A stretch of 49,347 nucleotides of DNA, taken from contig JAFVTU010000010.1 of the NCBI GenBank assembly GCA_017503075.1, positions 1-49,347 of the forward strand, written 5' to 3'. The notes under the pieces are model-generated. The model worked only from the letters and a program-made list of their open reading frames with translations, searched no databases and was not told where the DNA came from. Source of the DNA: Paludibacteraceae bacterium (lineage in GTDB: Bacteria > Bacteroidota > Bacteroidia > Bacteroidales > Paludibacteraceae). Shown one piece after another: positions 33,306 through 49,347 of this stretch. The stretch's first letter is position 1. Each line of letters opens with the position of its first letter. The position numbers and the translations under genes are program-made.

Positions 33306-33307
33306 CA

Positions 33308-34746: not shown

Positions 34747-34754
34747 TACCTTTG
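34747..34754 (+). promoter_or_regulatory. Bacteroidota promoter
   Basis: TACCTTTG followed by GCGCCC, with TTTG at about 34722-34725 as -33. Confidence 0.7.
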
Positions 34755-34841
34755 CGCCCGATTGTTGTGGATTTCCTATTTTTGTGGAAAATCTGCATTA
34801 AAAACCTGATTATTAATACATAAAAACACATACACTTGCAT

Positions 34842-35258
34842 ATGAGCTTGATTTCTACACGCAACTCATTATTTTCACCCCTTACGCACGCGCATCCAAG
34901 AGGCGCAATACTAGCGATTTTACTGCTATTTTTTACTATTCAAGTAGGTGCTCAGGAGTTTTCCTCCACCTCTGCTTATCGTGTTCAGCAGATTGACATG
35001 TCTGCTCAATCCGTGCAAGTAGAGGGTTATCAGCAATACCACTCTACTATCTATGAGCCATTCTCATCATCCACACCTAGTTATGGCGGCAGCAACAACG
35101 ACCAATCATCGGGTATGGGTGGCAGGAGAAACGCTTTTGGTCACCCAGACGATCCTAATAAAGATCCAGAATCCCCTATCGGTGAGCCATGGATTATGCT
35201 GGTATTTGCAGCGTTAGTTGCTGTAGTTATCGCACTTCGTAAGAAGCAACATGCCTAA
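34842..35258 (+). CDS. Hypothetical exported protein with C-terminal membrane anchor
   Basis: A protein of 138 aa starting at ATG 34842, after a well-formed promoter and an 80-nt leader. It has an N-terminal hydrophobic signal (ILAILLLFFTIQVGAQ), a low-complexity Ser/Gly/Tyr/Gln middle (STPSYGGSNNDQSSG) and a C-terminal membrane segment IMLVFAALVAVVIALRKKQ. This is the layout of a small surface protein anchored by its C-terminus. I do not recognise the family. Confidence 0.55.
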   Translation: MSLISTRNSLFSPLTHAHPRGAILAILLLFFTIQVGAQEFSSTSAYRVQQIDMSAQSVQVEGYQQYHSTIYEPFSSSTPSYGGSNNDQSSGMGGRRNAFGHPDDPNKDPESPIGEPWIMLVFAALVAVVIALRKKQHA

Positions 35259-35588
35259 TGATTGCCCCTTGGTTGCCACCTATCTACATAGGGACTTCAT
35301 AGGGACTTCATAGGAACTTCATAGGGACTTCACCGAAGGATTAGCATAGGACAACTAAGGGATGTATAAGGGATGTATAAAGAATATATATGGGATGCCA
35401 ATAGCCAATAGCCTATCGCCCAAAACCAACCAACATAACAGCAACACCCCATCGGTTCAGTCCTCGGCGCTATCCGCCGAGCATAACAATAACAATAACA
35501 CCCGCAACAACGTCGCAGAGCGACAAATAACATAGATAACAAAACAACGTGGCTTCGCCACACAAAACGTCGCTAAGCGACCAAGAAG
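35259..35588. repeat. Filler region with CTTCATAGGGA repeats and five mini-hairpins
   Basis: Four CTTCATAGGGA units lie at 35293-35332, then two AAGGGATGTAT units, then CCAATAGCC words. After these come hairpins CTCGGCG-ctatc-CGCCGAG (35463-35481), GTCGC-AGA-GCGAC (35512), GTGGC-TTC-GCCAC (35549) and GTCGC-TAA-GCGAC (35569). They run up to 7 bp before the ORF6N gene. No gene is supported. Confidence 0.65.
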
Positions 35589-36224
35589 ATGCCAACAAAA
35601 AGAGCACATAAAGCAGTTGTAAAAAAGGCGCAAACCACGCCTCTTCTCCCTATATCTATGGAAGATGTGCAAAACAAGATTGTTATCTTGCGCGGTGAGC
35701 CTGTTATATTAGATCGTGACGTTGCTACATTATACGGAGTAGAAACACGTGAAATTAATCAAGCAATAAAGAATAACCCTGGAAAATTCCCAGCAGGATA
35801 TACTTATATACTTAATAATCAGGAAGTTGCAGAGATGAGATCAAAAATTTTGACCACATCCTCAGAAACTACTGAAAATGAGAAGGTTAACGTAAATATA
35901 ACTAAAAGTCACTATAATCCTACGGCTCTTACAGAGAAGGGATTGTATATGATGGCGACCATATTGAAAAGTGAACGAGCCACTCAGACTACTATCGCCA
36001 TTATTGAGACGTTCGCTAAAACCCGATATTTGAAACGTGAATTAGTGGCACTACATAAAGAAACTGACTCAACACAAGCATCCGAAAAGCTGAAGCGCTT
36101 TGGAGAAGTAATCGCAGACCTTGTGATGCCAGATTTGGAAACCTCCGAAACAGAGTCTACATTAGAACTAGATTTCTTTATTGGGAAGCTGAAACATACT
36201 GTCAAACGGACAAAGAAACAATAA
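35589..36224 (+). CDS. ORF6N-domain protein
   Basis: A protein of 211 aa. The ORF6N domain (residues about 20-105) is clear: VQNKIVILRGEPVILDRDVA, TLYGVETREINQAIKNN and FPAGYTYILNNQE, followed by ALTEKGLYMMATILKS. The family is shared between phage antirepressors and bacterial chromosomes and is thought to bind DNA. The C-terminal third is charged (FIGKLKHTVKRTKK). There are no other phage genes nearby, so I do not call a prophage. Filler with GTCGC palindromes flanks it on both sides. Confidence 0.82.
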   Translation: MPTKRAHKAVVKKAQTTPLLPISMEDVQNKIVILRGEPVILDRDVATLYGVETREINQAIKNNPGKFPAGYTYILNNQEVAEMRSKILTTSSETTENEKVNVNITKSHYNPTALTEKGLYMMATILKSERATQTTIAIIETFAKTRYLKRELVALHKETDSTQASEKLKRFGEVIADLVMPDLETSETESTLELDFFIGKLKHTVKRTKKQ

Positions 36225-36320
36225 CAGCAAAACCAACGTCGCAAAGCGACATACAACATAGAATATTAACCCTAGTCTATAGCCTATTGCCAATAGCCTA
36301 TAGCCAACAGAAAAAAACAT
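36225..36320. repeat. Filler with GTCGC-AAA-GCGAC hairpin and CCTATTGCC words
   Basis: The hairpin lies at 36238-36250. CTATAGCCTATTGCCAATAGCC follows at about 36278-36305. No gene or promoter is seen. Confidence 0.55.
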
Positions 36321-39300
36321 ATGAAACACAATCTACTTAAATCGGTTATCATTTCAGTAATCCTTCTAATGGGAGTTTCTAACGCATGGGCGTATGAAAA
36401 TTTCAACGAGATTTGGGGCACTTACAATATTGGAGGTAATGACGAAGGTGCTGCATTTTCTTCTAACAAGGACTTAGGAGTTGTATCTAAATTTACTATT
36501 CAAGCTTTTTATCTGAAGTGTAAAGATAATTGGGGGGCGAGTAGGACTTGCTGGACTGCCGGTGCATTGTACTATGAGGTCAACGGGGGAGGATTTACAG
36601 AAGTTATTAATACTGCTACAGATTGGAAACCAGACGGATGGGCAGAAGCAGAGTACCAATTCAAGAAAGAAAACATGAATCTTACCTTAGCTACGAATTC
36701 TGGTGAATACACAGTGAAATTCTACGGAAAAGTCTGGGGCGATAGAGATACATATTTAAGTAACAATGGAAACAATTATGAATGGACATTTACAATAAAT
36801 CCTCCTGATATAACAAATATCCAAGTTAATGCAACAGGTTGTATTGGAGGTATAGGTACGCAACAAGATCCATATATCGTAGCATATGGAGCATCATTAA
36901 CATTAACAGCTTCAGTGACAAATAGCGATGCAAACTCAAATACGCATTATAAATTTGGGAATAAAGATGCCAGCACAACAAACACATATACTATTTCAAA
37001 CATCACTAATTCTGATAAACAGTCGCTAACTATCACTGCTCAAAACATCAATAAAACTGACAACAGTTTGAAAGGAAATAGTAAAACAACGACAATTTAC
37101 TACAAATATTCGCCACTATACGTTTATGTTAATGGTACAAATCATCTATTTGATAACGACACAAAGAAAGTTACTGTTGCACTTACCCAAAATAATGGCG
37201 ACGAAACGTACGCATTCAAAATCCATGACAATTTCGGCCATTGGCTAGGTAACAATGGAACTATGGAGCGTGGAGGGAATGCTGTTCATAGTGGAGGTTG
37301 GACAATGAGTGCTGGCGCTGAAGATTGCAAGCTGAAAGCAGATTTAACCGGTGAGTACACATTTACTTTCATGCCTGCAACGAACAAAGTAACTGTCACA
37401 TATCCTCAAAAATCATATTTTATCGCAGGTTCATGGGATAATTGGGCAGGAACAGCACCTTCATTCGTGGATGCTAGTACACCTGTTTCCATCTACCTAG
37501 AAGCAGATCAAACCTATAGTTTCAAAGTCGCTGACTTGACTGCTAATGCAACATGGTATGGCAATAATGGAACTATGACACGCGCCAATTCCACTGCCTG
37601 GACAATGACTAATGGAGCAAACAATTGCCAAATTTATGCGGATCTCTCTGGTAACTACACATTTACCTTTGATAAATCTACTAAGAAGTTGACCGTCACA
37701 TACCCAACCAAAGTAACTTTAGGTTATTGCGAGTTTGGACAATACGGAATAGAATACGATGGCACAACATATTATTCAAAACCCGATGAGAATGTAGAAA
37801 TCAACATACCACGTGGTGCTTCAGTACGAGTGTTAGAAGGAACACCTCTTAATAACGCGTACACAGGCGGAGTATTAATGGTCTTACCTACCAAAGTTCC
37901 AAATGTAGAAAACACACCCATCACCATTGAAGGCGATACGAAGTTTGATGATATGTTCGTAACGAAAGCTTCGCATACGGTATATCTGAATGTACCAAAC
38001 GACTGGACAACAGCAAAAATATACGCATGGAATGAGGATGGAAATACCACCTTAGAAAACCCAAAATCTATTGATATAAACGGTAATACATACTACGAAT
38101 TTAGCATCCCTGCGGGATATAATAACTTTGAATTCCGCACTAGTGATGACACCAAGAGAACTGCTAGTTTCCCATTTGGTATTCCTCTTAATAAGGTCAA
38201 TTGTTATACTATCACAAACACTGTAACCCAACATACGGGGTACAAGGTCTACTCTGGCACTTGGGGCATTCTTCCTGCACAAGAAGGCGATTACCGATTG
38301 CTTTATGTGGAGCAAACTGTTGAATATGGAGAAATAACATTTGACAAATCACACCCTTCTGACATCGTCAAGCTAACCAACATTGGCGACAAAGATATCG
38401 TTAGCCTACACCTATATAATGAACGCGCGGAAGGAGTCAACGGTATGAACAACGCTGCGGTTATTTTGCAAAGATGTACAGGTTACGTTGAAGGCGTAGC
38501 ACAGTGGGAAGAAGTTGAGTACCACATGGTGTACAACCGCCTATTCTCCGAAGCATCTGCTGCCTTATTGCCAGGACGTAGAAACACCGTAGAGTTGCGA
38601 GACCACGATGGTTTAGAGGTAATCAAAGCAGTAGCTGACAGCGAAGAACACGACTATGGTTCTGGCGTTTGGAACTTCACCATCCAGAAGACTAACGAAA
38701 GTGCTACCCTACTCCTCGACGAAAATAACCTCGAACCTTACGAGGGCAACTACTATATCCGTACCAATAATACTGCAGGTGGTTGGAAAAATTACATGCA
38801 ACCTGACAACTACATGACCTTCTCACAATATGCAAAAGATAATAGTGGCTTTTCACACTACTACTGCAAATGGATTAACCATAATGGTGATGGAGATGGC
38901 GGTACTGCACACGCAAATGTCAAATTTATGGTTGCAAATGACTATGCCACTAATTTGGCGAAAGAATGCGCACAAGATGACTACACATTAGAGGATGGTA
39001 TATTGTTTGAAGATGCCAATGTCCGTTGGTCATGGGATGTTGTAACCAACAAAATCTCGCGCGCGTATATACGAGGTGCATATGATGGTCATGGACAACG
39101 ATTAAATAACATCGTATTGGATTATACCACTGGTGGTTTAACCACCCCTCCCGATGTGACATTAGACGATAGAGGTGACTGGATTTACCAAGTAGATGTA
39201 ACGGATGTTGAACCTGGCGCCACCTTAACTTCACTAACAGCTACTTATCCATCAAAATCAAGTGGAGAAAAAGAATATCAGTACGATGGAACAAAAGCGG

Positions 39301-40814
39301 ATGGCACAAAATATAAAGATGGTGATAAGTACACTGTAGAACCTACAACACAAACATTTGCAGAAAACATAGACATGCTCACTGGTGACGGAGATAATAC
39401 CTACACCGTGCGTGTACTATATGACTTTAAGATTGATAAGACATTGGTGGCATTAGTGCCGAATGAAAACGTAGCTGACATAGAAATTGACGTAATTATT
39501 GAGCGTGTGGATCAAGACGAGGCTACACAAGTACGAGCTCAAATCAATGCCGCTCGCACAACAGAAGGTTCAACCGTATATGCGGTAATGTCATTTACCC
39601 AAGATCACATTACTGGTGGTGCATCCAAATACGCAAAACAATTCTACTGGATATCCTTCCCATTCGATGTCCGTGTTTCTGATGTCTTTGGATTCGGCGA
39701 ATATGGCAAACATTGGATTATCCAATGGTACGATGGAGCTGAACGTGCTAAAAATGGTTGTTGGATAGACTCACCTACATACTGGAGATTCCAAACCGAT
39801 ACCACTGATTATGTACTAGAAGCAGGAAAAGGTTATGTGCTAACACTAGATTTGGCAGAGATGGATGTATTTGCCAATACAAACAAAGTGAGTCTTTACT
39901 TCCCATCTAGAAATACAGTACAAACCGTTAATGGTGACATCATTCAGGACCTTAACGAAATTGAGTTAGAGCCATATACTTGTACTATCCTACGTAATGA
40001 CAGATATATCAAAGATAGCCACTGGCACATGCTCGGCGTTCCTTCATATGCCAATAAGAATAAATCATTCACTCAGAATAACGTGGCATACTTCTACCAA
40101 TACAACTCTGCAAATGACACATATACTCCAACCTCATCAGGATCATTCAACTTCAATTCAATGTTCTCATACATGGTTCAGTTTGCAGGTACTATCAATT
40201 GGAGTGAATTTGCTTTCGACGCCAACGGTAGTCAAGGATTAGCAGCCAAGAGAAATACCGATAACGCAAATGACAAGCACGTATTGCGCCTTGAATTGCA
40301 AAAGAATAGTTTATTTGTTGATCAGACATTTGTTCAACTACAAGCAGAAGAAGCAACTGAGATGTTTGATATGAACCTTGATTTGACCAAGATGGTTAAT
40401 TCAGGAAATAATATCTACTCGCTTATTCCAGGTACAGAAAGCAATATCGAAGTGGCTGCAAATGCAATGCCAATCGCAGAGACCATTATCCCTCTTGGTG
40501 TTAAGATCACAGCAGCAGGCGAATATACCTTCGCGATGCCGGATGGAACAGATGGTATTGTGGTTGAACTCATTGACTACGAGACTAATACCACAACCAA
40601 CCTACTGCTTGACAACTACACCGTTAACCTCGGCAAGGGCACCTTCGAAAGCCGCTTCGCTCTCCATGTAAGACCAGATAAAACAGTCACCAGCCTTGAT
40701 AATATAGGCGATGAGACAACAGGCGATGAGGCGAAGAAGTACATCATCGATGGCAAACTATTCTTGCAAAAGGACAACACCCTCTACGATGCACAAGGAC
40801 ATATCGTGCGCTAA
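36321..40814 (+). CDS. Very large secreted protein with paired beta modules
   Basis: A protein of 1497 aa with signal peptide (SVIISVILLMGVSNAWA). Two homologous modules of about 95 aa lie at about 266-360 and 362-457. Each contains LGNNGTMER or YGNNGTMTR, then WTMSAGAEDC or WTMTNGANNC and YTFTF...KVTVTYP; they resemble SusE/F-like or CBM-like carbohydrate-binding domains. The rest is beta-rich with no enzyme motif. The last residues (IIDGKLFLQKDNTLYDAQG) match the tails at 30270 and 45660. It probably sits at the cell surface and binds glycan or protein. Codon use is less biased than in the ribosomal genes nearby. Confidence 0.75.
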   Translation: MKHNLLKSVIISVILLMGVSNAWAYENFNEIWGTYNIGGNDEGAAFSSNKDLGVVSKFTIQAFYLKCKDNWGASRTCWTAGALYYEVNGGGFTEVINTATDWKPDGWAEAEYQFKKENMNLTLATNSGEYTVKFYGKVWGDRDTYLSNNGNNYEWTFTINPPDITNIQVNATGCIGGIGTQQDPYIVAYGASLTLTASVTNSDANSNTHYKFGNKDASTTNTYTISNITNSDKQSLTITAQNINKTDNSLKGNSKTTTIYYKYSPLYVYVNGTNHLFDNDTKKVTVALTQNNGDETYAFKIHDNFGHWLGNNGTMERGGNAVHSGGWTMSAGAEDCKLKADLTGEYTFTFMPATNKVTVTYPQKSYFIAGSWDNWAGTAPSFVDASTPVSIYLEADQTYSFKVADLTANATWYGNNGTMTRANSTAWTMTNGANNCQIYADLSGNYTFTFDKSTKKLTVTYPTKVTLGYCEFGQYGIEYDGTTYYSKPDENVEINIPRGASVRVLEGTPLNNAYTGGVLMVLPTKVPNVENTPITIEGDTKFDDMFVTKASHTVYLNVPNDWTTAKIYAWNEDGNTTLENPKSIDINGNTYYEFSIPAGYNNFEFRTSDDTKRTASFPFGIPLNKVNCYTITNTVTQHTGYKVYSGTWGILPAQEGDYRLLYVEQTVEYGEITFDKSHPSDIVKLTNIGDKDIVSLHLYNERAEGVNGMNNAAVILQRCTGYVEGVAQWEEVEYHMVYNRLFSEASAALLPGRRNTVELRDHDGLEVIKAVADSEEHDYGSGVWNFTIQKTNESATLLLDENNLEPYEGNYYIRTNNTAGGWKNYMQPDNYMTFSQYAKDNSGFSHYYCKWINHNGDGDGGTAHANVKFMVANDYATNLAKECAQDDYTLEDGILFEDANVRWSWDVVTNKISRAYIRGAYDGHGQRLNNIVLDYTTGGLTTPPDVTLDDRGDWIYQVDVTDVEPGATLTSLTATYPSKSSGEKEYQYDGTKADGTKYKDGDKYTVEPTTQTFAENIDMLTGDGDNTYTVRVLYDFKIDKTLVALVPNENVADIEIDVIIERVDQDEATQVRAQINAARTTEGSTVYAVMSFTQDHITGGASKYAKQFYWISFPFDVRVSDVFGFGEYGKHWIIQWYDGAERAKNGCWIDSPTYWRFQTDTTDYVLEAGKGYVLTLDLAEMDVFANTNKVSLYFPSRNTVQTVNGDIIQDLNEIELEPYTCTILRNDRYIKDSHWHMLGVPSYANKNKSFTQNNVAYFYQYNSANDTYTPTSSGSFNFNSMFSYMVQFAGTINWSEFAFDANGSQGLAAKRNTDNANDKHVLRLELQKNSLFVDQTFVQLQAEEATEMFDMNLDLTKMVNSGNNIYSLIPGTESNIEVAANAMPIAETIIPLGVKITAAGEYTFAMPDGTDGIVVELIDYETNTTTNLLLDNYTVNLGKGTFESRFALHVRPDKTVTSLDNIGDETTGDEAKKYIIDGKLFLQKDNTLYDAQGHIVR

Positions 40815-40837
40815 GGCGCAGCTATATGTTTAGTGGA

Positions 40838-40851
40838 CGCCGCAAAACGGC
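40838..40851. repeat. GGACGCCG mini-hairpin in filler
   Basis: GCCG-CAAAA-CGGC is preceded by GTTTAGTGGA and followed by TACTGTTTAGGGTTTAGAG. It is the mirror image of the CTAAAC...CGTCC words elsewhere. Confidence 0.5.
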
Positions 40852-40883
40852 TACTGTTTAGGGTTTAGAGAAAACACTATAGA

Positions 40884-40922
40884 AAAAAAGACAAGAGTTG
40901 AGCATCACGCTCAACTCTTGTT
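40884..40922 (-). terminator. Terminator of ddh
   Basis: ACAAGAGTTGAGC pairs with GCTCAACTCTTGT. On the minus strand it is followed by CTTTTTTTCT, the proper T tract for ddh. It may also slow plus-strand transcription of the secreted protein. Confidence 0.8.
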
Positions 40923-40969
40923 GTAGATTATCTAATTGTCTGAAAGCCCCGAAAGGGCTTCCAACAACC

Positions 40970-41827
40970 TTACACCAACTGGCGTATCAGTTTTTCTTCC
41001 TCACCAGGCAGCATTGCTATTGGTGGCAACTCTATCATCGTATAAGCGCCATATTGCCCTTTCTGCTGCATCCGTACCGCTGCACGAGCAGCTGACACCA
41101 TCACCTGTGCCGTCAGAGCTGGGTTATTGATGCGCATCGTAAACTCCAGATGTTGCCCCTCCACATTGCTCGACACACCATCGCGCACTAGATTCACACC
41201 ATGCCCTACGCTATTAATCGCCGCTACTGACTCCACCACAATCATTTTAGTATCGTCACTAGCGAAATACGCATCTGCCTTCAGCAGTGATTCTACCACC
41301 TGAGCGTCTGCACCGTCCTCTAACTCCACATACACTTCTCTTCGGTGTACTCCCTTACCCATAGGGATAGTCATTGACAGCGCATCCTTCACACCAGCAA
41401 TAGCCTTCGCTGCCACGGTATGTCCCATCGAGCGACCAGGACCAAAATTGGTATATGTCACTCCCTCTGGCACCAACGCCATAAGCAACGCACGCACCAC
41501 AGAGTCAGATCCAGGATCCCATCCTGCCGAAATCACACTCACTGCCTTATTGGCCTTAGCTACAGGCATAAGCGATTGTCGGAGATCATAAATCTTTTGA
41601 TGAATATCAAACGAATCCACCGTACATATCCCCCTCTGCAGCAGTGCCTTAGCAAAAGGTTCCACCTCACGCGTAGGGGTACATAGCAGTACAACATCCG
41701 CTTCAATATCATCCAGATTATCATTGTGGTGATATATGCCCGCGAGCTCCATATCTGGAGCCGCCTTGATCGCCTGCTCCGCAGCACGACCTATATTTCC
41801 ATATCCAAGAATCGCTACTTTCATCAT
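40970..41827 (-). CDS. ddh: meso-Diaminopimelate dehydrogenase
   Basis: An enzyme of 285 aa that makes meso-diaminopimelate from tetrahydrodipicolinate with NADPH and ammonia in one step, for peptidoglycan and lysine. It shows the Rossmann motif LGYGNIGRA near the N-terminus, VVLLCTPTREVEPFAKALLQ, VISAGWDPGSDSVVRAL, FGPGRSMGHTVAAKAI and GKGVHRREVYVELEDG, all typical of Ddh. ATG 41824 is an alternative start. It has its own promoter and terminator. Confidence 0.93.
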   Translation of the reverse strand: MMKVAILGYGNIGRAAEQAIKAAPDMELAGIYHHNDNLDDIEADVVLLCTPTREVEPFAKALLQRGICTVDSFDIHQKIYDLRQSLMPVAKANKAVSVISAGWDPGSDSVVRALLMALVPEGVTYTNFGPGRSMGHTVAAKAIAGVKDALSMTIPMGKGVHRREVYVELEDGADAQVVESLLKADAYFASDDTKMIVVESVAAINSVGHGVNLVRDGVSSNVEGQHLEFTMRINNPALTAQVMVSAARAAVRMQQKGQYGAYTMIELPPIAMLPGEEEKLIRQLV

Positions 41828-41933
41828 GTGGTGTAATGTTAACTAGTGTGGTCTTTTCTATTATTGTATCTAGTGCATCTAGTGTATCTAGATTTCCTAA
41901 ATTGACTATATTATCTAAATAACCTCGAGGGTG

Positions 41934-41941
41934 CAAAATTA
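41934..41941 (-). promoter_or_regulatory. Bacteroidota -7 box of ddh
   Basis: The minus strand reads TAATTTTG followed by GCACCC. The leader of about 100 nt holds repeated CTAGATACACTAGATGCACT-like units. Confidence 0.65.
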
Positions 41942-42025
41942 CACATTTTTTCTGAAACAACAAAAGGGAAGAAGCAAAAAGATGATTTTTTAGCAAAAAT
42001 ATTTGGTCAATCCAAAAAAAAGCAG

Positions 42026-42033
42026 TAATTTTG
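42026..42033 (+). promoter_or_regulatory. Bacteroidota promoter of rplS
   Basis: TAATTTTG followed by GCACCG, with TTTGG at 42003-42007 as -33. Confidence 0.7.
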
Positions 42034-42043
42034 CACCGATTTT

Positions 42044-42140
42044 CGACTATAGTCTCTGGCGATCAGCATAGAGTACGTATGATTGCGGCTCGAACAGTAG
42101 TGTATACTATAGTTATTTAACCCATTAAACAAACAACGAA
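42044..42140 (+). promoter_or_regulatory. Structured leader of rplS (possible L19 autoregulatory site)
   Basis: The 100-nt leader contains GACTATAGTC and later TACTATAGTTA, which can pair with each other, and a CTGGCGATCAG segment. Structured leaders ahead of ribosomal genes often bind the product. This is inference from position and pairing only. Confidence 0.35.
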
Positions 42141-42494
42141 ATGGATTTAATGAAAATTGCCGAAGAGGCATTCGCTGGCGAGAAGAAAGAGTTTCCAGCA
42201 TTCGCTGCAGGTGATCAAGTGACTGTAGCTTATCGTATTAAAGAGGGTAACAAGGAGCGTATTCAAGAGTTCCGCGGTGATGTAATTTGCATCCACGGTA
42301 GCGGTGACAAGAAGCGCTTCACCGTTCGCAAGATGTCTGGCAACGTAGGTGTAGAGCGTATCTTCCCTATGGATAGCCCATTCATCGAGAAAATTACTGT
42401 GAACAAATACGGTAAAGTTCGTCGCTCTAAATTGTACTACTTGCGTGCTCTTACTGGTAAGAAAGCTCGTATTCCAGAGCGCCGCGTGAAGTAA
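42141..42494 (+). CDS. rplS: 50S ribosomal protein L19
   Basis: A protein of 117 aa, a normal length for L19, which sits at the 30S-50S interface. Landmarks are [20 protein letters not shown] (start of the SH3-like domain), [33 protein letters not shown] and the basic end [17 protein letters not shown]. Codon use is strongly biased. The tRNA-Gln gene 69 bp downstream lacks a clear promoter and is probably on the same transcript. Confidence 0.97.
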
Positions 42495-42509
42495 TGTCAC
42501 TTCGTGACA

Positions 42510-42552
42510 ATTTAAAACTCTTAGAACCTTTAGAACTCTTAGAACTTTAAAC
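42510..42552. repeat. CTTAGAACCTTTAGAAC filler word
   Basis: Four TTTAGAAC or CTTAGAAC units lie between rplS and the tRNA. A very similar run precedes the U32 gene at 26600. Confidence 0.55.
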
Positions 42553-42563
42553 TGTCACGATAT

Positions 42564-42634
42564 TGCCAAATGGTGTAACGGTAGCACTACAGATTCTGGT
42601 TCTGTCTGTCTGGGTTCGAATCCTAGTTTGGCAA
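42564..42634 (+). tRNA. tRNA-Gln (anticodon CTG)
   Basis: A complete cloverleaf. Acceptor TGCCAAA (42564-42570) pairs with TTTGGCA (42627-42633) and A 42634 is the discriminator. The D stem is GTG/CAC. Anticodon stem ACAGA/TCTGT encloses loop TTCTGGT with anticodon CTG. T stem CTGGG/CCTAG encloses TTCGAAT. CCA is not encoded. It reads CAG codons. Its last 20 nt plus two flanking bases recur exactly at 42801 and 43046. Confidence 0.93.
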
Positions 42635-42635
42635 C

Positions 42636-42673
42636 AAAATGAGAATCTCCTTATTGGAGGTTCTTATTTTGTT
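42636..42673 (+). terminator. Terminator after tRNA-Gln(CTG)
   Basis: AAAATGAGAATCTCC pairs with GGAGGTTCTTATTTT with two wobbles or bulges, around TTATT. Confidence 0.7.
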
Positions 42674-42704
42674 TCTAAACTCATGGATGAGAACCCACTA
42701 AAGG

Positions 42705-42735
42705 GGTCCCCACCAAGCTTTGCTTGGAAGGGGAG
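42705..42735 (+). other. Nested hairpin CCCC/GGGG with CCAAGC core
   Basis: CCAAGC-TTT-GCTTGG (42713-42727) is a perfect 6-bp hairpin with a 3-nt loop, enclosed by CCCC and GGGG. It precedes the first tRNA-tailed unit. Confidence 0.55.
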
Positions 42736-42743
42736 AGTGAGGA

Positions 42744-42820
42744 TGTGCGGTTGCCTAATGTCGCGGGCGACATTCTTTGCAACAAGCACAAGCCGAACGA
42801 CGAATCCTAGTTTGGCAACA
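42744..42820 (+). other. tRNA-tailed nested-rod element, copy 1
   Basis: Pairs TGTGC/GCACA, GTTGC/GCAAC and AATGTCG/CGACATT form a rod with internal loops (42744-42790). AGCCGAAC and GACGA follow, and then an exact 20-nt copy of the tRNA-Gln(CTG) 3' end (42801-42820). GTTGCC can alternatively pair with GGCAAC of the tail, like a tRNA acceptor stem. The span from TTGCC to the tail end is 70 nt, close to tRNA length. It is followed by its own terminator. It is not a functional tRNA because there is no anticodon arm. Confidence 0.6.
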
Positions 42821-42861
42821 AAAAAGAAAGATTCTCATCTGAGAGTCTTTCTTTTTTTTCT
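42819..42861 (+). terminator. Terminator of copy 1
   Basis: AAAAAAGAAAGATTCTC pairs with GAGAGTCTTTCTTTTTT around ATCT, then more T residues. The stem sequence differs from the tRNA terminator but has the same bulged architecture. Confidence 0.75.
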
Positions 42862-42880
42862 ACTGAACTAGCACAAAAAT

Positions 42881-42967
42881 AAATCGAACTTCGTGAGTTC
42901 GATTTAAGAGGAAGAATGACGGTCGCCCAATGTTGCAAAGCAACATTCATTGCGACAAGTCCATTCT
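42881..42967 (+). other. Nested-rod element with upstream hairpin, copy 2
   Basis: AAATCGAAC pairs with GTTCGATTT (42881-42905), followed by AAGAGGAA. Then a rod forms from AGAATG/CATTCT, GTCGC/GCGAC and AATGTTGC-AAA-GCAACATT (42913-42967), and GACGA follows. The same order of parts, with other stem sequences, occurs at 48460-48547 before tRNA-Gln(TTG). Confidence 0.6.
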
Positions 42968-42987
42968 GACGAGGGGGAGAGTGAGGA

Positions 42988-43065
42988 TGTGCGGTTGCCT
43001 AATGCTGCAAAGCAGCAGTCATTGCAACAAGCACAAGCCGAACGACGAATCCTAGTTTGGCAACA
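42988..43065 (+). other. tRNA-tailed nested-rod element, copy 3
   Basis: Pairs TGTGC/GCACA, GTTGC/GCAAC and TGCTGC-AAA-GCAGCA form a rod (42988-43035). AGCCGAAC and GACGA follow, then the 20-nt tRNA-Gln(CTG) 3' end (43046-43065). The flank is nearly identical to copy 1, but the apical stem is a different, still perfectly paired sequence. Confidence 0.6.
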
Positions 43066-43102
43066 AAACGAAAGGCTTCCCTTCTGGGAGGTCTTTCGTT
43101 TT
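43062..43102 (+). terminator. Terminator of copy 3
   Basis: AAAACGAAAGGCTTCCC pairs with GGGAGGTCTTTCGTTTT around TTCT. The architecture matches the two previous terminators. Confidence 0.75.
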
Positions 43103-43311
43103 GTTGTTGCTAGAGAATCTAGAAGGGCTGGAAGGGCTAGAGAGGCGGGAAGGGGTAAAGTGTAAGGCATAAAGACGAGAAAGGTGACAAAAATTGCAAA
43201 AATTACCAAGAAGAGAAACAAATTTTCATCAAAATCAACGAAAAACATACAAAAAATCACAAAAAGTATAAAAAAAATGGAAAAATGTTTGCATATATGA
43301 ATTATATATAT
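43103..43311. other. A-rich intergenic stretch with reversed filler
   Basis: GGAAGGGCTAGAGAGGCGGG and GGGTAAAGTGTAAGGC (the reverse of CCTTACACTTTACCC) are followed by an A-rich stretch at 43180-43285. It leads into the promoter at 43312. No gene is seen. Confidence 0.5.
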
Positions 43312-43319
43312 TACCTTTG
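43312..43319 (+). promoter_or_regulatory. Bacteroidota promoter
   Basis: TACCTTTG followed by GCACG, with TTTG at 43288-43291 as -33. The long leader (about 120 nt) contains alternating AT-rich and CGCATACACGCAT sequence. Confidence 0.75.
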
Positions 43320-43449
43320 CACGTGATTTTGCTAAACAAAAACGGCAAAAAGTAAAAAGCAGCCGCTGCAAAGTCCATTTACGCGCATACACGCATATAT
43401 ATATAATAAGGTATATAGTTTTTAAGGTACAATTTTAAATTTTATTTTT

Positions 43450-45678
43450 ATGAAAAAGATTTACTCTCTTTTCATGGCACTAAGTATTGTGCTATGTGCC
43501 ATGGCTAGTTCTCCTTATGTAATGGAGAGACAATTGGCTGTTTCCAACTCTAAAGTGGTAAACAAGCAAGCAAAATTCAACCAACAAGATCGCGAAGCTA
43601 TCGCAGCAAAGCGTATGGCAAAAGCAACACCTGCATTGCAAGTGAATGGCGCTCGCCAAATTGAGGCTGTGCAAACCATCGCTAAACAAGCAATGCCTGC
43701 TAACGCTGTTCGCAAAGCTCCTGCTAAAGCCACAGAAGGGATTGTAGCTACTGACACAGTGGTTATCCTTGGAGGAGAGTGGTCGTATGAGTATTATGCA
43801 GAGAGTGGCGACTGGTACATGGCTGTGATTGACGAAACACAAACCTACGTAGTACGTTTGGACTACTTGGCAGAGGAGAGCGGCTTTGCTGGTACATTCG
43901 GTATTGATGATTTGGATTTGGATTATTCTTACTTGACTATCTATGACACAGATGGCACCAAGACCTTCGTGGATTATGTAGAAGCAGAATTTACAGTAAC
44001 CGTTACCGAAGATAGCAAATTCTTGGAGGCAAACTTGCTATGCGAGGATAGTATCCGTTACCTCGTAAGTGCAGCAGAGTTGCCATTGCCTGAGGCAAAG
44101 GACACCGTAGAGTTGGCTTATACCAATGGTCACTTGGAGGACGGCACGCGCAGCACCGAGACTTTCCAATTCTGGGCTGACGAGAATGGTGTTTACACCT
44201 CATTCCTTATCGCTTCTGATGAAGTAGTGGGAGAATACACTCAAGACGATATGTATGTAGCTTATGCAAACTACATCATGTTTGTAGATGGCATAGATAC
44301 TACTTTCGTTGACTTCTTGGGTCTCAACTTGACTGTCACCAAAGAAGATCAAACCTATTTTGCAGACGCATACGCATTGGGCGTTGATACCGTTATGTAT
44401 CACATCACCATGTCATATACCAAACCTGCTCCAACCGACACCATCGACATCGTAGCCACCAACATGACTATTGACGAATTCGAGTTCATTGGTATGTATT
44501 TCTGCACCATCACCGCAAGCAACGACGAATACACCGTTACTCTCGATATGGCCAATGGTTTGCCACTAGGCGAACTCACCAGCGCAGATTTCAATGTAGA
44601 TTGGAGTTCTGTTTATCGTGTTGCAGATTCGACAGAGATTGCGTTTGAAGATATCCTCAGCGCAACTGTTACAGAAGTGGACGGACAACGTGCTATCAAA
44701 GCTCAAGCATTGGGTGTAGATACCATTCTCTACAACTTAGATCTCAGTTATGTGTTGCCAACCGCAACTGATACCGTAGAGGTAGTATTCACTACCCCTG
44801 CAAGTGCAGAATACTATGACTCATACGGTGATTATTATATCTATAATGAAAACGAGGAGTATATCGTAGCATTAGACATCTTTGCAGAGAAGAACGCATT
44901 GGAAGGCGAATACGAAGGCGAAGACTTTGATTATTATTACACTGAAGTAGGTCTTATCGTAGATGGCGATACTACTGGCGTGGCTGTAGCAGCAGCAAAA
45001 GCAACTATAACAAAAGTAAGCGAAGAATTAGCACATATTGACGCTGAGTTGCTCTGCGAGAACGAAGTGCTTTATTTGGTTAGCACCGATGTAACCATGT
45101 CAAAATTAGGTTTGCAATACGATATGACAGAGGGCAAAGTAAATCGCGAATATAACCTCAATGATGAATTGACCTTCAACACCGATTACGTAGCAGATTA
45201 TGGTGAATTATATGTGGACGTAATAGCTGGTGACATGAGCGACTTGATGTCATTGCTCTTCTTCGTAAACGATACTGTAGAAGGTTTGGTACTTCCAGAA
45301 GGTACATATCCAATCAGTGATACATACGCTGAAGGTACTGTATTAGCATCTACTGGCTATGATGAAGACTATGGCGCAATGCCATCTAACTACTGCACAT
45401 TGGTTGTAGATGGAGGTAAATTGTATCTCAATGAATGTTTCTTCATGGTAGGCGGAAGTGTAGTAGTAGAGCACGTGGATGGTCACTTGAAGATTACCGT
45501 TGATGCTGTGAACTCATACGACGTTCCTGCACATATCGTATATGAGGCAAATCCAGCAGAGACAGGTTTCGAGAATATCAAAGTAAACACCAACGCAAGC
45601 AAAATGATTGAGAACGACCAACTCTTGATCATCAAAGACGGCGTGAAATACAATGTTATGGGTTCTGTAGTAAAATAA
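43450..45678 (+). CDS. Secreted acidic tandem-module protein with T9SS-like tail
   Basis: A protein of 742 aa with signal peptide MKKIYSLFMALSIVLCAMAS. After a basic Lys/Ala/Gln stretch (residues 30-95), about five modules of 100-115 aa repeat. Each starts with a DTV(V/E)-type strand and ends in a motif such as LGVDTVMYHITMSY, LGVDTILYNLDLSY or LCENEVLYLVSTDV. The modules are strongly acidic and rich in Tyr and Asp; no enzyme motif is seen. The tail ENDQLLIIKDGVKYNVMG matches those at 30270 and 40800. It is probably an abundant surface protein with strong promoter and terminator signals. Confidence 0.75.
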   Translation: MKKIYSLFMALSIVLCAMASSPYVMERQLAVSNSKVVNKQAKFNQQDREAIAAKRMAKATPALQVNGARQIEAVQTIAKQAMPANAVRKAPAKATEGIVATDTVVILGGEWSYEYYAESGDWYMAVIDETQTYVVRLDYLAEESGFAGTFGIDDLDLDYSYLTIYDTDGTKTFVDYVEAEFTVTVTEDSKFLEANLLCEDSIRYLVSAAELPLPEAKDTVELAYTNGHLEDGTRSTETFQFWADENGVYTSFLIASDEVVGEYTQDDMYVAYANYIMFVDGIDTTFVDFLGLNLTVTKEDQTYFADAYALGVDTVMYHITMSYTKPAPTDTIDIVATNMTIDEFEFIGMYFCTITASNDEYTVTLDMANGLPLGELTSADFNVDWSSVYRVADSTEIAFEDILSATVTEVDGQRAIKAQALGVDTILYNLDLSYVLPTATDTVEVVFTTPASAEYYDSYGDYYIYNENEEYIVALDIFAEKNALEGEYEGEDFDYYYTEVGLIVDGDTTGVAVAAAKATITKVSEELAHIDAELLCENEVLYLVSTDVTMSKLGLQYDMTEGKVNREYNLNDELTFNTDYVADYGELYVDVIAGDMSDLMSLLFFVNDTVEGLVLPEGTYPISDTYAEGTVLASTGYDEDYGAMPSNYCTLVVDGGKLYLNECFFMVGGSVVVEHVDGHLKITVDAVNSYDVPAHIVYEANPAETGFENIKVNTNASKMIENDQLLIIKDGVKYNVMGSVVK

Positions 45679-45699
45679 TTACTCATCACATACACAGTC

Positions 45700-45730
45700 A
45701 AGGAGGGTGCTACGGCATCCTCCTTTTTTA
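45700..45730 (+). terminator. Rho-independent terminator
   Basis: AAGGAGGGTGC and GCATCCTCCTT pair with one wobble around TACG, then TTTT. Confidence 0.85.
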
Positions 45731-45780
45731 TAGAAAACATTTTTTCAGACTATTTGTTTGTATATGTCCAAAAAAAGCAG

Positions 45781-45788
45781 TACCTTTG
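45781..45788 (+). promoter_or_regulatory. Bacteroidota promoter of tyrS
   Basis: TACCTTTG followed by GCACGG, with TTTG near -33 (45753-45760). Confidence 0.72.
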
Positions 45789-45828
45789 CACGGTTTTTTG
45801 ATTATACACCTTATTATATATATAAGCA

Positions 45829-47124
45829 ATGAAGAATTTTGTAGAAGAATTGCGTTGGCGTGGCATGTTGCAAGACATGATGCCAGGCACCGAAGAACAA
45901 CTGATGAAAGAACCTACTGCTGCATACTTGGGTATTGACCCTACTGCAGATAGTTTGCATATTGGGCACCTCTGCGGTATCATGATGCTCAAGCACCTGC
46001 AAAATGCAGGTCACAAACCCATCGCGCTGATTGGTGGTGCAACAGGTATGATTGGCGACCCAAGTGGCAAATCAGCCGAGCGTAACCTGCTGGACGAACC
46101 TACCCTACGCCACAACCAAGAGTGCATTAAGAAGCAACTAGAGCGTTTCCTCAACTTCGGCGAAGGCGAGAATGCTGCTGAGCTCGTAAACAACTACGAC
46201 TGGATGAAGGACTACACCTTCCTCGACTTTGCACGCGAAGTGGGCAAACTCATCACCGTCAACTATATGATGGCAAAAGACTCTGTTAAAAAACGCTTCA
46301 ATGGCGAGTATAGCCAAGGTATGTCGTTCACAGAGTTCACCTATCAACTGCTCCAAGGATACGACTACGTATATCTCAACAAGCACAAGAACTGCAAACT
46401 CCAAATGGGTGGTAGCGACCAATGGGGAAACATCACCACAGGTACCGAGCTCATCAAGAAGATGGGTGGCGGTGAGGTTTTTGCATTGACTTGCCCACTC
46501 ATTACCAAAGCTGACGGCGGTAAGTTCGGTAAGACCGAGAGTGGCAACGTATGGCTCGACCGCAAATACACCAGCCCATATCGTTTCTATCAGTTCTGGC
46601 TCAACGTGAGCGATGATGATGCCAAACGCTATATCCGCATCTTCACTTGCCTCGACAAAGAGACCATCGACGCACTCATCGCAGCACACGACGAGGCACC
46701 ACACATGCGTACCTTGCAAAAGCGATTGGCAGAAGAGGTGACCGTGATGGTACATAGCCGCGAAGATTATGAGGCAGCCGTAGAGGCAAGCAACATCTTG
46801 TTTGGCAATGCGACACACGAGGCACTAAGCAAACTAGACGAGGAGATGTTCCTGCAAGTATTTGACGGCGTGGAGAAATACGAAATTAGCCGCGAAGACA
46901 TTGAGGCAGGTATTCCTCCACTCGACCTATTGGCAGAGAAAACCAAGATCTTCCCATCCAAAGGCGAAGCACGCAAGATGATTATCGCCAACGGCTTCTC
47001 TATCAACAAGGAGAAATTCACCGACCCACAAAAGGCAATCACCATTGATATGCTCCTCAATGGCAAATACCTGCTCTGCCAAAAAGGTAAAAAGAATTAC
47101 TATATTGTAGAAGTAAAAGGATAA
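45829..47124 (+). CDS. tyrS: Tyrosyl-tRNA synthetase
   Basis: A class I synthetase of 431 aa. It has HIGH at 44-47 ([10 protein letters not shown]), the tyrosine-binding [14 protein letters not shown], the KMSKS equivalent KFGKTES near 231, and an S4 RNA-binding domain at the C-terminus ([20 protein letters not shown]). It charges tRNA-Tyr. It is monocistronic, with its own promoter. Confidence 0.96.
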
Positions 47125-47180
47125 TGGACGCCCATTGGGCTATTGGATAATGGACGGCTAACGCCTATTGGGTAATGGCT
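47122..47180. repeat. Filler with GGACG mini-hairpins
   Basis: TAATGGAC precedes the hairpins GCCC-ATT-GGGC (47130-47140) and GGC-TAAC-GCC (47156-47165). TATTGG follows each. This is the mirror orientation of the CCAATA...GTCC copies. Confidence 0.65.
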
Positions 47181-47187
47181 ATAGACA

Positions 47188-47222
47188 GAAAATCAGCGAA
47201 GCAGGAGTTTCGCTGATTTTCG
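47188..47222 (+). terminator. Terminator of tyrS
   Basis: GAAAATCAGCGAA pairs perfectly with TTCGCTGATTTTC around about 8 nt, then GTTT. Confidence 0.82.
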
Positions 47223-47304
47223 TTTAGAGAGGGTATTTCGTAATAAAAAGGTATCATTTGTTATGAAAACAACGGTGGAAATTGTGTATTTGCTTAAAAT
47301 ATCG

Positions 47305-47312
47305 TACCTTTG
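47305..47312 (+). promoter_or_regulatory. Bacteroidota promoter
   Basis: TACCTTTG followed by GCAGC, with TTTG at 47289-47292 nearby; it gives a leader of about 55 nt. Confidence 0.68.
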
Positions 47313-47373
47313 CAGCACATTTTGCTTCGCCTTGGTGCGGAGCTATTATTATGCAAATCACACTCGTTGAATA

Positions 47374-48324
47374 ATGAAAAAAGTATTTCTACTCTTTTTT
47401 TTATGCCTAACAGTAGGCATGTATGCAGAACGAATTGACACTATTCCCTTCGGAGATATGGAGAGTTGGGCAGTTCGTTACATCAAAGAATCCAAACTTT
47501 TAGGCGGTCAAACCAAAACACTGTATGCTTTAGCCCCTACCGACACCATTTGGGAAAACGGTTCTTATACCTACGGATTGAACGGCAATCCTTGGGCAAC
47601 CAGCAACGCCTATGCCAATGTGATTGGCATTGAGAAAGCCGCAGGCACTATGACACCCGAAGCAAGAGAAGATGGGGGTACATGTTGCCGTATGGATGTG
47701 GACTTGCTAGGTGTTCGCGTGATGGGAATAATTGATATACAAGTACTTGTGCCAGGCACATTGTTCACAGGACGCAATCTTGAACCTATCACTACTGCCG
47801 CTGACCCATATCAAAACATTGACTTTGGAGTACCATTCACTGAGCGACCAAGTGCTTTGCAGTTTGATTATAAATGCATCATCTCCCCTGAGAATTGGAT
47901 ATGGTTTGCTAAAGGTACTGCTAAGCCAAAAAAACTAGAAGGACACGACGAGGCAGAAGCATATCTATATTTGCAACATCGCTGGGAGGATGAGAAAGGC
48001 AAGATTCACTCTATCCGCGTAGGCACTGCCTACGAACGCTTCACCGAAGATCAACTCACATGGGTAAATGGTCATCGCATACCTATCCACTATGGCGATA
48101 TCACGGGTGAACCTTGGTACGAAGATTATATGGGCTTCAAGTGTATGCAACGCGCTGTGAATTCGAGAGGCAAAGTGACCCCCATCATCGAAGAAGGTTG
48201 GGACGGCACACTAGAACCTACTCACCTCGTTATCATGCTCACTTCGGGTAAATACGAAGCATTCGTCGGCAAGGAAGGCAACGTGTTTTGGGTAGATAAT
48301 GTGAGTCTAGTGTACGAAGATTAA
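47374..48324 (+). CDS. Exported PCMD-domain-like protein
   Basis: A protein of 316 aa with signal peptide (MKKVFLLFFLCLTVGMYA). The order of features IPFGDMESWA, NGNPWATSNA, DIQVLVPGTLFTGRN, DFGVPFTERPSALQFDYK and EAYLYLQHRW resembles the putative carbohydrate metabolism domain (PCMD) of Bacteroidota surface proteins, which is a jelly-roll-like fold. The final 40 residues form another beta segment (VIMLTSGKYEAFVGKEGNVF). Substrate or ligand is unknown. Confidence 0.65.
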   Translation: MKKVFLLFFLCLTVGMYAERIDTIPFGDMESWAVRYIKESKLLGGQTKTLYALAPTDTIWENGSYTYGLNGNPWATSNAYANVIGIEKAAGTMTPEAREDGGTCCRMDVDLLGVRVMGIIDIQVLVPGTLFTGRNLEPITTAADPYQNIDFGVPFTERPSALQFDYKCIISPENWIWFAKGTAKPKKLEGHDEAEAYLYLQHRWEDEKGKIHSIRVGTAYERFTEDQLTWVNGHRIPIHYGDITGEPWYEDYMGFKCMQRAVNSRGKVTPIIEEGWDGTLEPTHLVIMLTSGKYEAFVGKEGNVFWVDNVSLVYED

Positions 48325-48459
48325 GCACATAATACGAGATTTTGCAAAGAAAATAGCATTTTTTTTGAAAAAAAGCAGCAAATAATTTGGTCAATTCAAA
48401 AAAAAGCAGTACCTTTGCACCCGCTTTCGAAAAGAAAGAATGAAAACCACCTCAAAACT
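48325..48459. other. Leader region before the tRNA-Gln(TTG) unit
   Basis: It holds only the promoter at 48410 and the start of the tRNA-Gln(TTG) transcript. Confidence 0.5.
48410..48417 (+). promoter_or_regulatory. Bacteroidota promoter of the tRNA-Gln(TTG) unit
   Basis: TACCTTTG followed by GCACCC, with TTTGG at 48387 as -33. The -33 to -7 stretch (TTTGGTCAATTCAAAAAAAAGCAGTA) is nearly the same as that of rplS at 42003. Confidence 0.75.
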
Positions 48460-48547
48460 AAATCAAAACGCGTTTTGATTTAAGAGGAAAAACAAACGAA
48501 GCGCACCACTTGCGTAGCAAGTCAATTCGCGTAGTTTGTTTTGACGA
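48460..48547 (+). other. Nested-rod element before tRNA-Gln(TTG), copy 4
   Basis: AAATCAAAACG pairs perfectly with CGTTTTGATTT (48460-48481), followed by AAGAGGAA. Then AAAACAAAC/GTTTGTTTT, GCG/CGC and ACTTGC-GTA-GCAAGT form the rod (48489-48542), and GACGA precedes the tRNA. Parts, order and single-stranded joints match copy 2, but no stem sequence is shared. Confidence 0.65.
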
Positions 48548-48619
48548 TGACCAATGGTATAAAGGCTATTACGTCAGATTTTGGTTCTGAAAATCTTGGT
48601 TCGATTCCAGGTTGGTCAA
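48548..48619 (+). tRNA. tRNA-Gln (anticodon TTG)
   Basis: Acceptor TGACCAA pairs with TTGGTCA and A 48619 is the discriminator. Anticodon stem TCAGA/TCTGA encloses TTTTGGT with anticodon TTG. T stem CTTGG/CCAGG encloses TTCGATT. CCA is not encoded. It reads CAA (and CAG by wobble). The nested-rod element is on its 5' side and would have to be removed by RNase P. Confidence 0.92.
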
Positions 48620-48625
48620 CTAAAG

Positions 48626-48651
48626 AAGCCCGTCCAAACGGGCTTTTTTTG
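48626..48651 (+). terminator. Terminator after tRNA-Gln(TTG)
   Basis: AAGCCCG pairs with CGGGCTT around TCCAAA, followed by TTTTT. Confidence 0.85.
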
Positions 48652-48696
48652 AGAGAAATCTCAACGTGTGATGGGATACGGGCAGCCACACCAACA

Positions 48697-48750
48697 GTAG
48701 TTTAAAGTTTAGAGGACGCTCGCACAGCGAGCTACAGTTTAGAGTTTAAA
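48697..48750. repeat. GTTTAGAG filler with GCTCGC-ACA-GCGAGC hairpin
   Basis: The hairpin at 48718-48732 has a perfect 6-bp stem and a 3-nt loop. It is flanked by TTTAAAGTTTAGAGGAC and TACAGTTTAGAGTTTAAAGG, which themselves are near-inverted. Confidence 0.65.
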
Positions 48751-48793
48751 GGCTGGGAATTCTGCCCTATTATTGAGTAACACTTTATAAAAA

Positions 48794-49347
48794 ATGAAAA
48801 CATTTGAATTGGTAGGTACTCCACGTAGCGAGTACGGCAAGAAAGCTGCTAAGACTTTCCGCAAAGAGAACCTCGTACCTTGCAACCTCTATGGCAATGG
48901 CGAGAACGTGACTTTCACTGTAACTGTTGACGATGTACGCAAACTCATCTACACTCCTGACACCATGGCAGTGGCTTTGACCATTGGCGAGGCTAAGAAG
49001 ATGGCGGTAGTAAAAGAGTTGCAATTCCACCCAGTAAGCGAGCAATTGCTTCATATTGACTTCCTCGAAGTAACTGAGGATAAGCCTGTAACCGTAGCTA
49101 TCCCTGTACAATTGCAAGGTCACGCAGAAGGTGTGAAAGCCGGTGGTAAATTGGCTCTTGAGATGAAGAAGCTGAAAGTGAACGGTATCTACACACAAAT
49201 TCCTAATCGCGTTGAAATCGACGTTACCAACCTCGGTTTGGGTAAGAAATTGTATGTAGGCGAAGTTAAACTCGAAGGTCTAAAACTGATGAACCCTGCA
49301 GATTCTTGCGTTGCTCGCGTGAAAGCAACTCGCGCAAGCCAACAAGC
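48794..49347 (+). CDS. rplY: 50S ribosomal protein L25/general stress protein Ctc (partial)
   Basis: An open frame from ATG 48794 runs off the right edge (184 complete codons seen). It starts MKTFELVGTPRSEYGKKAAK and continues with LVPCNLYGNGENVTFTVTVD, the 5S-rRNA-binding N-domain, then the C-terminal CTC domain with LHIDFLEVTEDKPVTVAIPV and the GVKAGGKLALEM loop. It binds 5S rRNA in the 50S subunit. Strong codon bias (GGT, AAG, GTA) matches other ribosomal genes. Start follows a filler word; the promoter may be that of the tRNA-Gln unit. Confidence 0.95.
   Translation, partial: MKTFELVGTPRSEYGKKAAKTFRKENLVPCNLYGNGENVTFTVTVDDVRKLIYTPDTMAVALTIGEAKKMAVVKELQFHPVSEQLLHIDFLEVTEDKPVTVAIPVQLQGHAEGVKAGGKLALEMKKLKVNGIYTQIPNRVEIDVTNLGLGKKLYVGEVKLEGLKLMNPADSCVARVKATRASQQ

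Follow-up and report, generated by a model that had tools for sequence, protein, structure and literature searches.

Why do two loci of one bacterial contig, each beside a tRNA-Gln gene, keep the same order of RNA parts while almost every stem position differs between them? The question is raised by a 49,347-nt stretch of a Paludibacteraceae genome (GenBank assembly GCA_017503075.1, contig JAFVTU010000010.1, positions 1 to 49,347), which as a whole is called the window here. The initial annotation described at both loci a hairpin, AAGAGGA, a three-tier rod and GACGA, and this make-up is confirmed by sequence and folding. Beyond that description, the two loci belong to a family of interspersed repeats with presence/absence differences between species. 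The fold of these repeats is kept through compensatory change, and roughly half of the copies sampled have their GACGA end directly at the beginning of a functional unit, in most cases a tRNA gene of the same orientation.

Copy 1 on the forward strand, as are all features given here, comprises hairpin 1 with its AAATCGAAC stem (42881..42905; sequence and folding) and a type I block (42906..42972) of AAGAGGA (42906-42912), the three-tier rod (until 42967) and GACGA (42968-42972), which scores 84.4 bits with covariance model R1, itself built with copy 1. In copy 2, hairpin 1 with a AAATCAAAACG stem (48460..48481; sequence and folding) is followed by the corresponding block (48482..48547; AAGAGGA 48482-48488, GACGA 48543-48547), recognised by folding and by an orthologue in genome G014, and the first base of tRNA-Gln(TTG) (48548..48620; tRNA call and Rfam match) comes directly after its GACGA. 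The intact tRNA-Gln(CTG) lies at 42564..42635 (tRNA call). Upstream of copy 2, a promoter-like region read by eye after the Bacteroidota promoter consensus, TTTG...TACCTTTG (48386..48422), has similar counterparts in relatives without the element. Unconstrained folding recovered the annotated stems at both loci, with minimum free energies of -35.3 kcal/mol for copy 1 (z -6.30) and -26.9 kcal/mol for copy 2 (z -3.46), and in neither case was any of 200 shuffles equally stable. The pattern GAGGA N45-75 GACGA occurs nine times in the window, against 0.95 expected, and four of these matches are rods (the two reported ones plus 42739-42803 and 42983-43048), the other five lying in predicted coding sequence. 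Copy 2 was not listed by a covariance model made from nine other copies of its own genome at E <= 0.1, nor at E <= 1, a sign of strong divergence; its assignment to the family is based on the shared ends, the hairpin, the flush position at a tRNA and the orthologue in G014.

The repeat unit thus delimited is about 100 nt long, too short for a noteworthy protein gene, and consists of hairpin 1, (A/G/T)AGAGGA, the three-tier rod and GACGA; it begins near AACTAA or AAATC and terminates at GACGA. Both ends are strongly conserved, with GACGA in 125 of 147 copies and AGAGGA in at least 134 of 147. In the whole genome of origin the conserved-end pattern occurs at 18 places, as does a reversed control pattern, so that this count proves nothing alone; 13 of the 18 are nevertheless rods (11 without duplicates on contig C13), ten of them variations on AAGAGGAGGRATSGCGG...GCGACAAGCSCATTCCGACGA. 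Model R1, built from nine rods of this genome, found 24 places in it at E <= 0.1. Since C13:1-19959 repeats the window end (29411-49347) at 99.9% identity, three of the 24 are duplicates and 21 places remain, plus copy 2; the 20 kb shared by the two contigs is an assembly overlap or a strain variant. A second rod type, GAGCGNAGG...CCGAACGC, was found at eight places, four of them already among the 24, versus none for its reversed control.

The covariance search proposed in the initial annotation yielded many further copies with paired-but-different stems, in 82 of 178 genomes of the genus at E <= 1e-6. A search of 61 genomes at E <= 0.01 had given 17 with a match, namely the genome of origin and 16 of 36 other genus members, and none of the 24 genomes of other genera in the order matched R1 at that threshold. 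At E <= 1e-5, 96 of 358 Paludibacteraceae genomes from four of 33 genera carried the motif, 93 of this genus and three of others; the genus and family searches used stricter filters, at which weak matches are lost. The family is therefore nearly restricted to one Paludibacteraceae genus of gut bacteria, and the motif-bearing records that carry a name are metagenome genomes of Paludibacteraceae or Bacteroidales, many of them ruminant-derived by title. For the copies in other genera, transfer or misbinned contigs are possible, because in one of these genomes (G341, locus L276) the 3′ flank is almost identical to that of L205 in G103. Candidate rods in other phyla were judged to be chance: nine matches, the best with 16 bits (E 0.089), compared with at least 48.9 bits in all 11 Bacteroidales loci. 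At title and abstract level, searches for Paludibacteraceae repeats and for tandem-GA or tRNA-upstream motifs found no published description of such an element among the papers listed, which is no proof of its being unpublished.

That the fold is under constraint is indicated by two comparisons. In an alignment of 132 matches (106 distinct) that had been fitted to the model, 93.2% of 1981 cells were paired versus 72.1% after shuffling, compensatory double changes occurred at all 19 modelled pairs, and the pairing signal collapsed when partners were slid by one column. Because of that fitting, an alignment-free arm swap was also made, in which each 5′ half was folded either with its own 3′ half or with one from another copy; 116 of 148 copies passed a length and end filter, and 44 representatives below 0.85 similarity were used. 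Own halves gave a mean of -22.33 kcal/mol and foreign ones -13.02, the lowest of 2000 permuted means being -14.73, and the own partner was the best of the 44 for 29 representatives. The suggestion of a selected structure thus finds support, as a constrained structure, in both the covariation and the arm swap. Read on the GACGA strand, paired columns contain 65 G.U against 14 A.C combinations (36 against 14 without one column pair that holds 29 G.U), and this strand is the better folder in 43 of 44 representatives, so the constrained molecule is the strand ending in GACGA, either as RNA or as single-stranded DNA. Between genomes, 21 partly overlapping comparisons of copies at the same tRNA showed 59 compensatory and 20 wobble differences; some of these copies may be replacements rather than orthologues.

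The position of the unit relative to genes was analysed in 165 matches from loci chosen among the best-scoring (100 + 27 sources) and four hand-added copies, match L232:815 being inadvertently omitted; removal of twice-fetched loci and of copies identical in the rod and the next 20 nt left 148 distinct copies from 40 genomes. GACGA ends 0-2 nt before a same-direction tRNA gene in 60 of them (31 genomes, 12 tRNA kinds), with spacers of 0 nt in 23, 1 nt in 33 and 2 nt in 4, and the one-base spacer is A in 31 of 33 cases. A same-direction tRNA within 300 nt downstream was present for 69 copies, that is, for these 60 and nine others, in eight of which a further copy intervenes. Against the 60 same-direction cases there is a single opposed copy at 0-2 nt, which adjoins the far end of a tRNA-Gly. 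Two tmRNA genes (L200, L223; Rfam-checked) start at the base after GACGA, and 14 copies end 1 nt before an ATG, always as ATGGC, the open reading frame (ORF) that follows being infB in four cases, groEL in two and one of the small ORFs called A or B in eight. Some ATG copies are intercistronic, in pairs that read as nusA-infB and groES-groEL, and two copies adjoin rpsU, 0 and 3 nt before AAAGGAGG; the names infB, groEL, rpsU, nusA and groES come from by-eye reading of the translations, with no family search. A special tie to tRNA-Gln, as the annotated pair of loci had implied, finds no support: the family adjoins twelve tRNA kinds, tmRNA and the starts of ORFs reading as infB, groEL and rpsU. 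Among a further 18 matches, one of them already counted, nine have a same-direction tRNA at a distance of 0-2 nt and one has it at 3 nt; another adjoins an opposed promoter box. By eye, no common motif was found in the bases after GACGA, ATGGC being confined to the ATG copies and not seen in the tRNA copies. Of the 60 flush tRNA copies, 52 are preceded by a TANNTTTG box within 260 nt (counted without a chance control) or by a tRNA no more than 300 nt upstream, and at ORFs the unit is preceded by a longer multi-hairpin leader. This leader (CCCCTCCCGGAATGGAGGG..., in some cases then CAGGCGGGAAACCGTC...) is shared by the regions ahead of infB, groEL and the small ORFs (L002, L005, L104, L106, L159, L209, L213).

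Comparison between relatives shows how variable the occupation of these sites is. At tRNA-Gln(TTG), 30 loci were considered, 23 of which were left uncompared since the search string did not locate the tRNA; five genomes (G082, G025, G078, G063, G062) have a similar promoter region and tRNA and no element, and G014 carries it with, by eye, two wobble-keeping stem changes and one stem-end mismatch. In a second comparison, where six of 20 sites in relatives were left out since the string was not located, the element was absent at tRNA-Leu(GAG) in G082 and G078, tRNA-Arg in G082 and G014, tRNA-Met in G014 and G082, tRNA-Ser in G082 and G078, and groEL in G025 and G082. Other sites hold other rods: at tRNA-Arg, G078 has the second rod type, preceded by a hairpin of close similarity; at infB, the same genome has a different rod with its end flush with the ATG; and at tRNA-Gly, G082 and G063 have further ones. 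G111 has near-identical units at several places, as does one contig of G185, and some of these units share flanks. No target duplication was seen by eye at element sites. In L211, upstream of position 600, a GGGGTCCC...GGGG palindrome lies within the loop of hairpin 1, a palindrome in a palindrome. Copies of L162, L180, L181, L182, L183, L186, L222, L229 and L230 (G133, G131, G105) have in common another block downstream, like AGGAGCGG...CAATTTATTACGGAGTAC, which shows that there is a larger repeat.

The enzymes that could drive such spreading were sought in 20 genomes, 13 carriers and seven low- or non-carriers, all drafts, so that absence is a soft result. RVT_1 was found in four of 13 carriers (G082, G103, G133, G119) and in none of the seven others, and Y1_Tnp was above cut-off in five of 20, three carriers and two low- or non-carriers; two genomes taken as non-carriers from the genus search (G093, G097) each had one weak match in the family search. 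A reverse transcriptase as the needed driver was set aside with nine of 13 carriers lacking RVT_1, yet all four hits are in carriers, and a Y1 transposase in that role was set aside with ten of 13 carriers lacking a match. A single 22-letter rod pattern had no match in viral contigs, phage and plasmid records not having been searched.

The reading that we favour, while holding it a little short of probable, is that of a non-autonomous hairpin repeat that spreads and that forms, on its transcribed strand, a folded leader domain directly adjoining the functional unit that follows. It builds on the conserved fold, the constrained GACGA strand, the position and the presence/absence differences seen across the family, and from these we infer transcription, function and movement. 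The unit would spread as a non-autonomous DNA repeat by means of a presumed mover. Once in a 5′ leader or between cistrons, it would be transcribed, as the promoter-like box or upstream tRNA before most flush tRNA copies suggests, and would fold into a compact domain ending exactly at the tRNA or ORF start. GAGGA and GACGA may extend the base of the rod through tandem G.A pairs around one G-C, and the domain so extended would stack on the next helix, either insulating the downstream RNA from the upstream transcript or marking its 5′ end for processing. A bolder version, which we consider rather unlikely, is that of a bacterial mobile leader RNA, a selfish or domesticated folded element that would place itself precisely where tRNAs, tmRNA and ORFs have their first functional base, taking over the insulation or cutting of their 5′ ends, with the tandem G.A core as recognition site. 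Small palindromic repeats of bacteria are usually viewed as intergenic passengers; here the fold is kept by compensatory change across many species and the end often lies within two bases of a tRNA start, which opens to testing the questions of how a repeat comes to lie, by recognition or by selection, exactly at the border of a functional RNA, and of whether a removable RNA domain is part of some bacterial tRNA leaders. At the base of the rod, the two conserved strands of five bases, GAGGA and GACGA, offer a compact biochemical target.

Several observations weigh against the leader reading. As many as 61 of the 148 copies were classed as 'other', that is, internal copies of arrays, copies near hairpins or near remnants of nqrF, ORF A or tRNA-Gln, both rpsU copies, and others without explanation; in this class, copies of L039 and L175 look flush with truncated tRNAs uncalled by ARAGORN. 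A promoter-box class holds ten copies, only four of which lie within 2 nt of the box, in opposite direction (L040, L053, L054, L050), the rest being three at 5-16 nt and three spurious ones (one in L194, two in L163); some antisense copies face a promoter box with their GACGA end, an arrangement for which a role as leader alone gives no explanation. Where arrays precede tRNAs, GACGA is missing from the upstream copies in eight of eight cases, and the same 21 comparisons of copies at one tRNA include 17 pair-breaking differences. A stable structure right at an ATG is normally expected to hinder translation. About half of the genus had no match under the stricter filters, gain at the compared loci is suggested by presence and absence, a pattern in which gain and loss look alike, and no movement machinery was found when RVT_1 and Y1_Tnp were sought in the 20 draft genomes.

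Because a selfish repeat would account no less well for the arrays, the dispensability and the copies that are opposed or classed as 'other', our confidence in the leader domain is held down, and a purely selfish palindromic repeat is a real, if doubtful, alternative. A trans-acting enzyme would then recognise the folded strand and insert it at the foot of structured or open DNA, with no gain for the host. Such a repeat would account for presence and absence between relatives, the tandem arrays and antisense copies, the nested palindrome of L211, the copies beside nqrF and tRNA-Gln gene remnants, and the restriction of RVT_1 to carriers in the sample; the near-identical copies of G111 and G185 also point to it, but the shared flanks of some of them equally permit segmental duplication. 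However, a random inserter should give variable spacers, and one without a target sequence leaves unexplained both why the spacers measure 0-2 nt and why direction at tRNAs is biased 60 to 1; the many carriers that lack RVT_1 or Y1_Tnp and the lack of visible target duplication argue in the same sense. It is quite improbable that the unit is an RNA cleavage module, with the AAGAGGA/GACGA base as recognition or catalytic core and a cut after GACGA that would free the tRNA, tmRNA or cistron. The strongly conserved ends would suit it, as would the exact placing of GACGA at tRNA and tmRNA starts and 1 nt before the ATG between nusA-infB- and groES-groEL-like cistrons, but RNase P would suffice for tRNAs and its RNA is present in the genome of origin (L012), which means that the element does not stand in for an RNase P that was lost. 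Moreover, no Rfam ribozyme other than RNase P RNA matched in the window and 10 loci, there are opposed copies at promoters, and the two rpsU copies end at the Shine-Dalgarno region and not at an RNA end. The least credible account is palindrome-perfecting mutation through hairpin-templated template switching, which would match the arms with no selection acting on the fold. The many inverted repeats and short tandem arrays of the window and the nested palindrome of L211 are in line with such a process; arm copying would nonetheless erase the asymmetric loops, the bulge and the GAGGA/GACGA ends that are kept, and an excess of G.U over A.C is unexpected from DNA copying. The pure palindrome-generating process offered in the initial annotation is for these reasons disfavoured.

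Among known elements, the rods have no match in Rfam, where only tRNA, tmRNA and RNase P RNA passed the gathering score in the window and 10 loci. Double-hairpin elements (DHE) are known from the mitochondrial DNA of Allomyces, and for sponge mitochondria repetitive hairpin-forming elements (RHE) are described as small, intergenic, patchily distributed and proliferating hairpin units (PMC2800124). The present family works like these mitochondrial elements, an analogy that makes no claim to common descent: it too is a small intergenic hairpin unit, patchy between close relatives and proliferating, and it differs in its bacterial host, in its long three-tier rod with compensatory change across many species, and in being often flush with, and in the direction of, the next functional unit. 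Repetitive extragenic palindromes (REPs) of the GTAG- and CGTC-tagged families are described as 20-40 bp long, the CGTC families having stems of 8-9 bp, and as situated mostly downstream of coding regions; CGTC REPs are said to have no dedicated transposase (PMC3733652). The likeness lies in interspersed imperfect palindromes with conserved unpaired ends, CGTC being contained in the complement of GACGA, and the unlikeness in units of about 100 nt that are often upstream of and flush with gene starts. The family resembles REPs in outline yet departs from them in size and transposase: complete rods alone measure about 60-77 nt with three stacked stems, only the GACGA complement recalls the CGTC tag, and the Y1 (RAYT, REP-associated tyrosine transposase) proteins of GTAG REPs correspond here to Y1_Tnp in three of 13 carriers and two of seven low- or non-carriers of a draft sample.

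NEMIS/Correia elements of Neisseria are described as small mobile palindromic repeats that affect neighbour expression and are linked to RNase III (PMC2649163). They share the small palindromic format; the Neisseria elements have inverted repeats around a core and can supply promoters, features for which no systematic search was made here. Rickettsia palindromic elements, about 100-150 bp long, are spread over one genus and noted for insertion inside ORFs; size class and single-genus spread agree, whereas many copies here lie at gene boundaries. The R boxes of integron attC sites read RYYYAAC and GTTRRRY, from which the GAGGA/GACGA ends differ, the integron integrase not having been searched. 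For a derivative of a retroelement or group II intron, the reverse transcriptase expected in carriers is not required, with RVT_1 in four of 13, though all hits are in carriers. The tRNA-targeting integrative elements, which have an integrase and att repeats at tRNA 3′ ends, are no better match: it is the 5′ end of a tRNA that 60 of the 148 copies adjoin, and an integrase would not fit into so short a unit.

The small genes A (about 100 aa) and B (about 110 aa) are recurrent and are accompanied at several loci by DUF5675 and by ORFs that look, by eye, like those of a holin or a spanin (L089 9475-10516; C11:71645-73287 in L090; L096 5535-6993; L097 2416-3139; L148, C8:33580-35252). With these companions they were considered as an autonomous element and rejected, being mostly familyless, with 60 copies of the repeat preceding tRNAs instead; a link is possible, as eight of the 14 ATG copies precede them. 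Ten linked-gene proteins were scanned, giving one DUF5675 and one HNH endonuclease over the curated cut-off and eight with only weak sub-threshold matches, and the scanned A and B proteins had no family match over cut-off. The 3′ end of an nqrF-like gene is repeated, with silent changes, in the downstream gene island (L007 1568-1647, L090, L146, L147), and several such nqrF pieces occur in related genomes.

Within the window, two variant rods that the first reading had overlooked flank copy 1. The upstream one, a hairpin and rod GTGAGGATGTGC...GCACAAGCCGAACGACGA at 42711..42803, scores 40.7 bits with R1 (42733-42800), and the second, at 42977..43048 immediately after copy 1, scores 49.8 bits (42977-43045). 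Their folds are less remarkable (42726-42806, z -1.33, 15 of 200 shuffles equally stable; 42972-43047, z -2.45, 3 of 200). Each is followed by an extra 3′ end of tRNA-Gln(CTG), from about 42801 and 43046 respectively, with a terminator-like hairpin recognised by eye (42801..42858, right after the upstream variant rod, and 43046..43103; repeat D8), and tRNA 3′-end repeats also stand beside similar rods of L163 and L197. Nonamer arrays like TTAAAACTCTTAGAACCT are found at 42503-42557, immediately before tRNA-Gln(CTG), and at 26594-26648, and a long decamer array like CTATACTACT at 32980-33354 has shorter counterparts at 27092-27172, 28475-28535 and 30123-30208.

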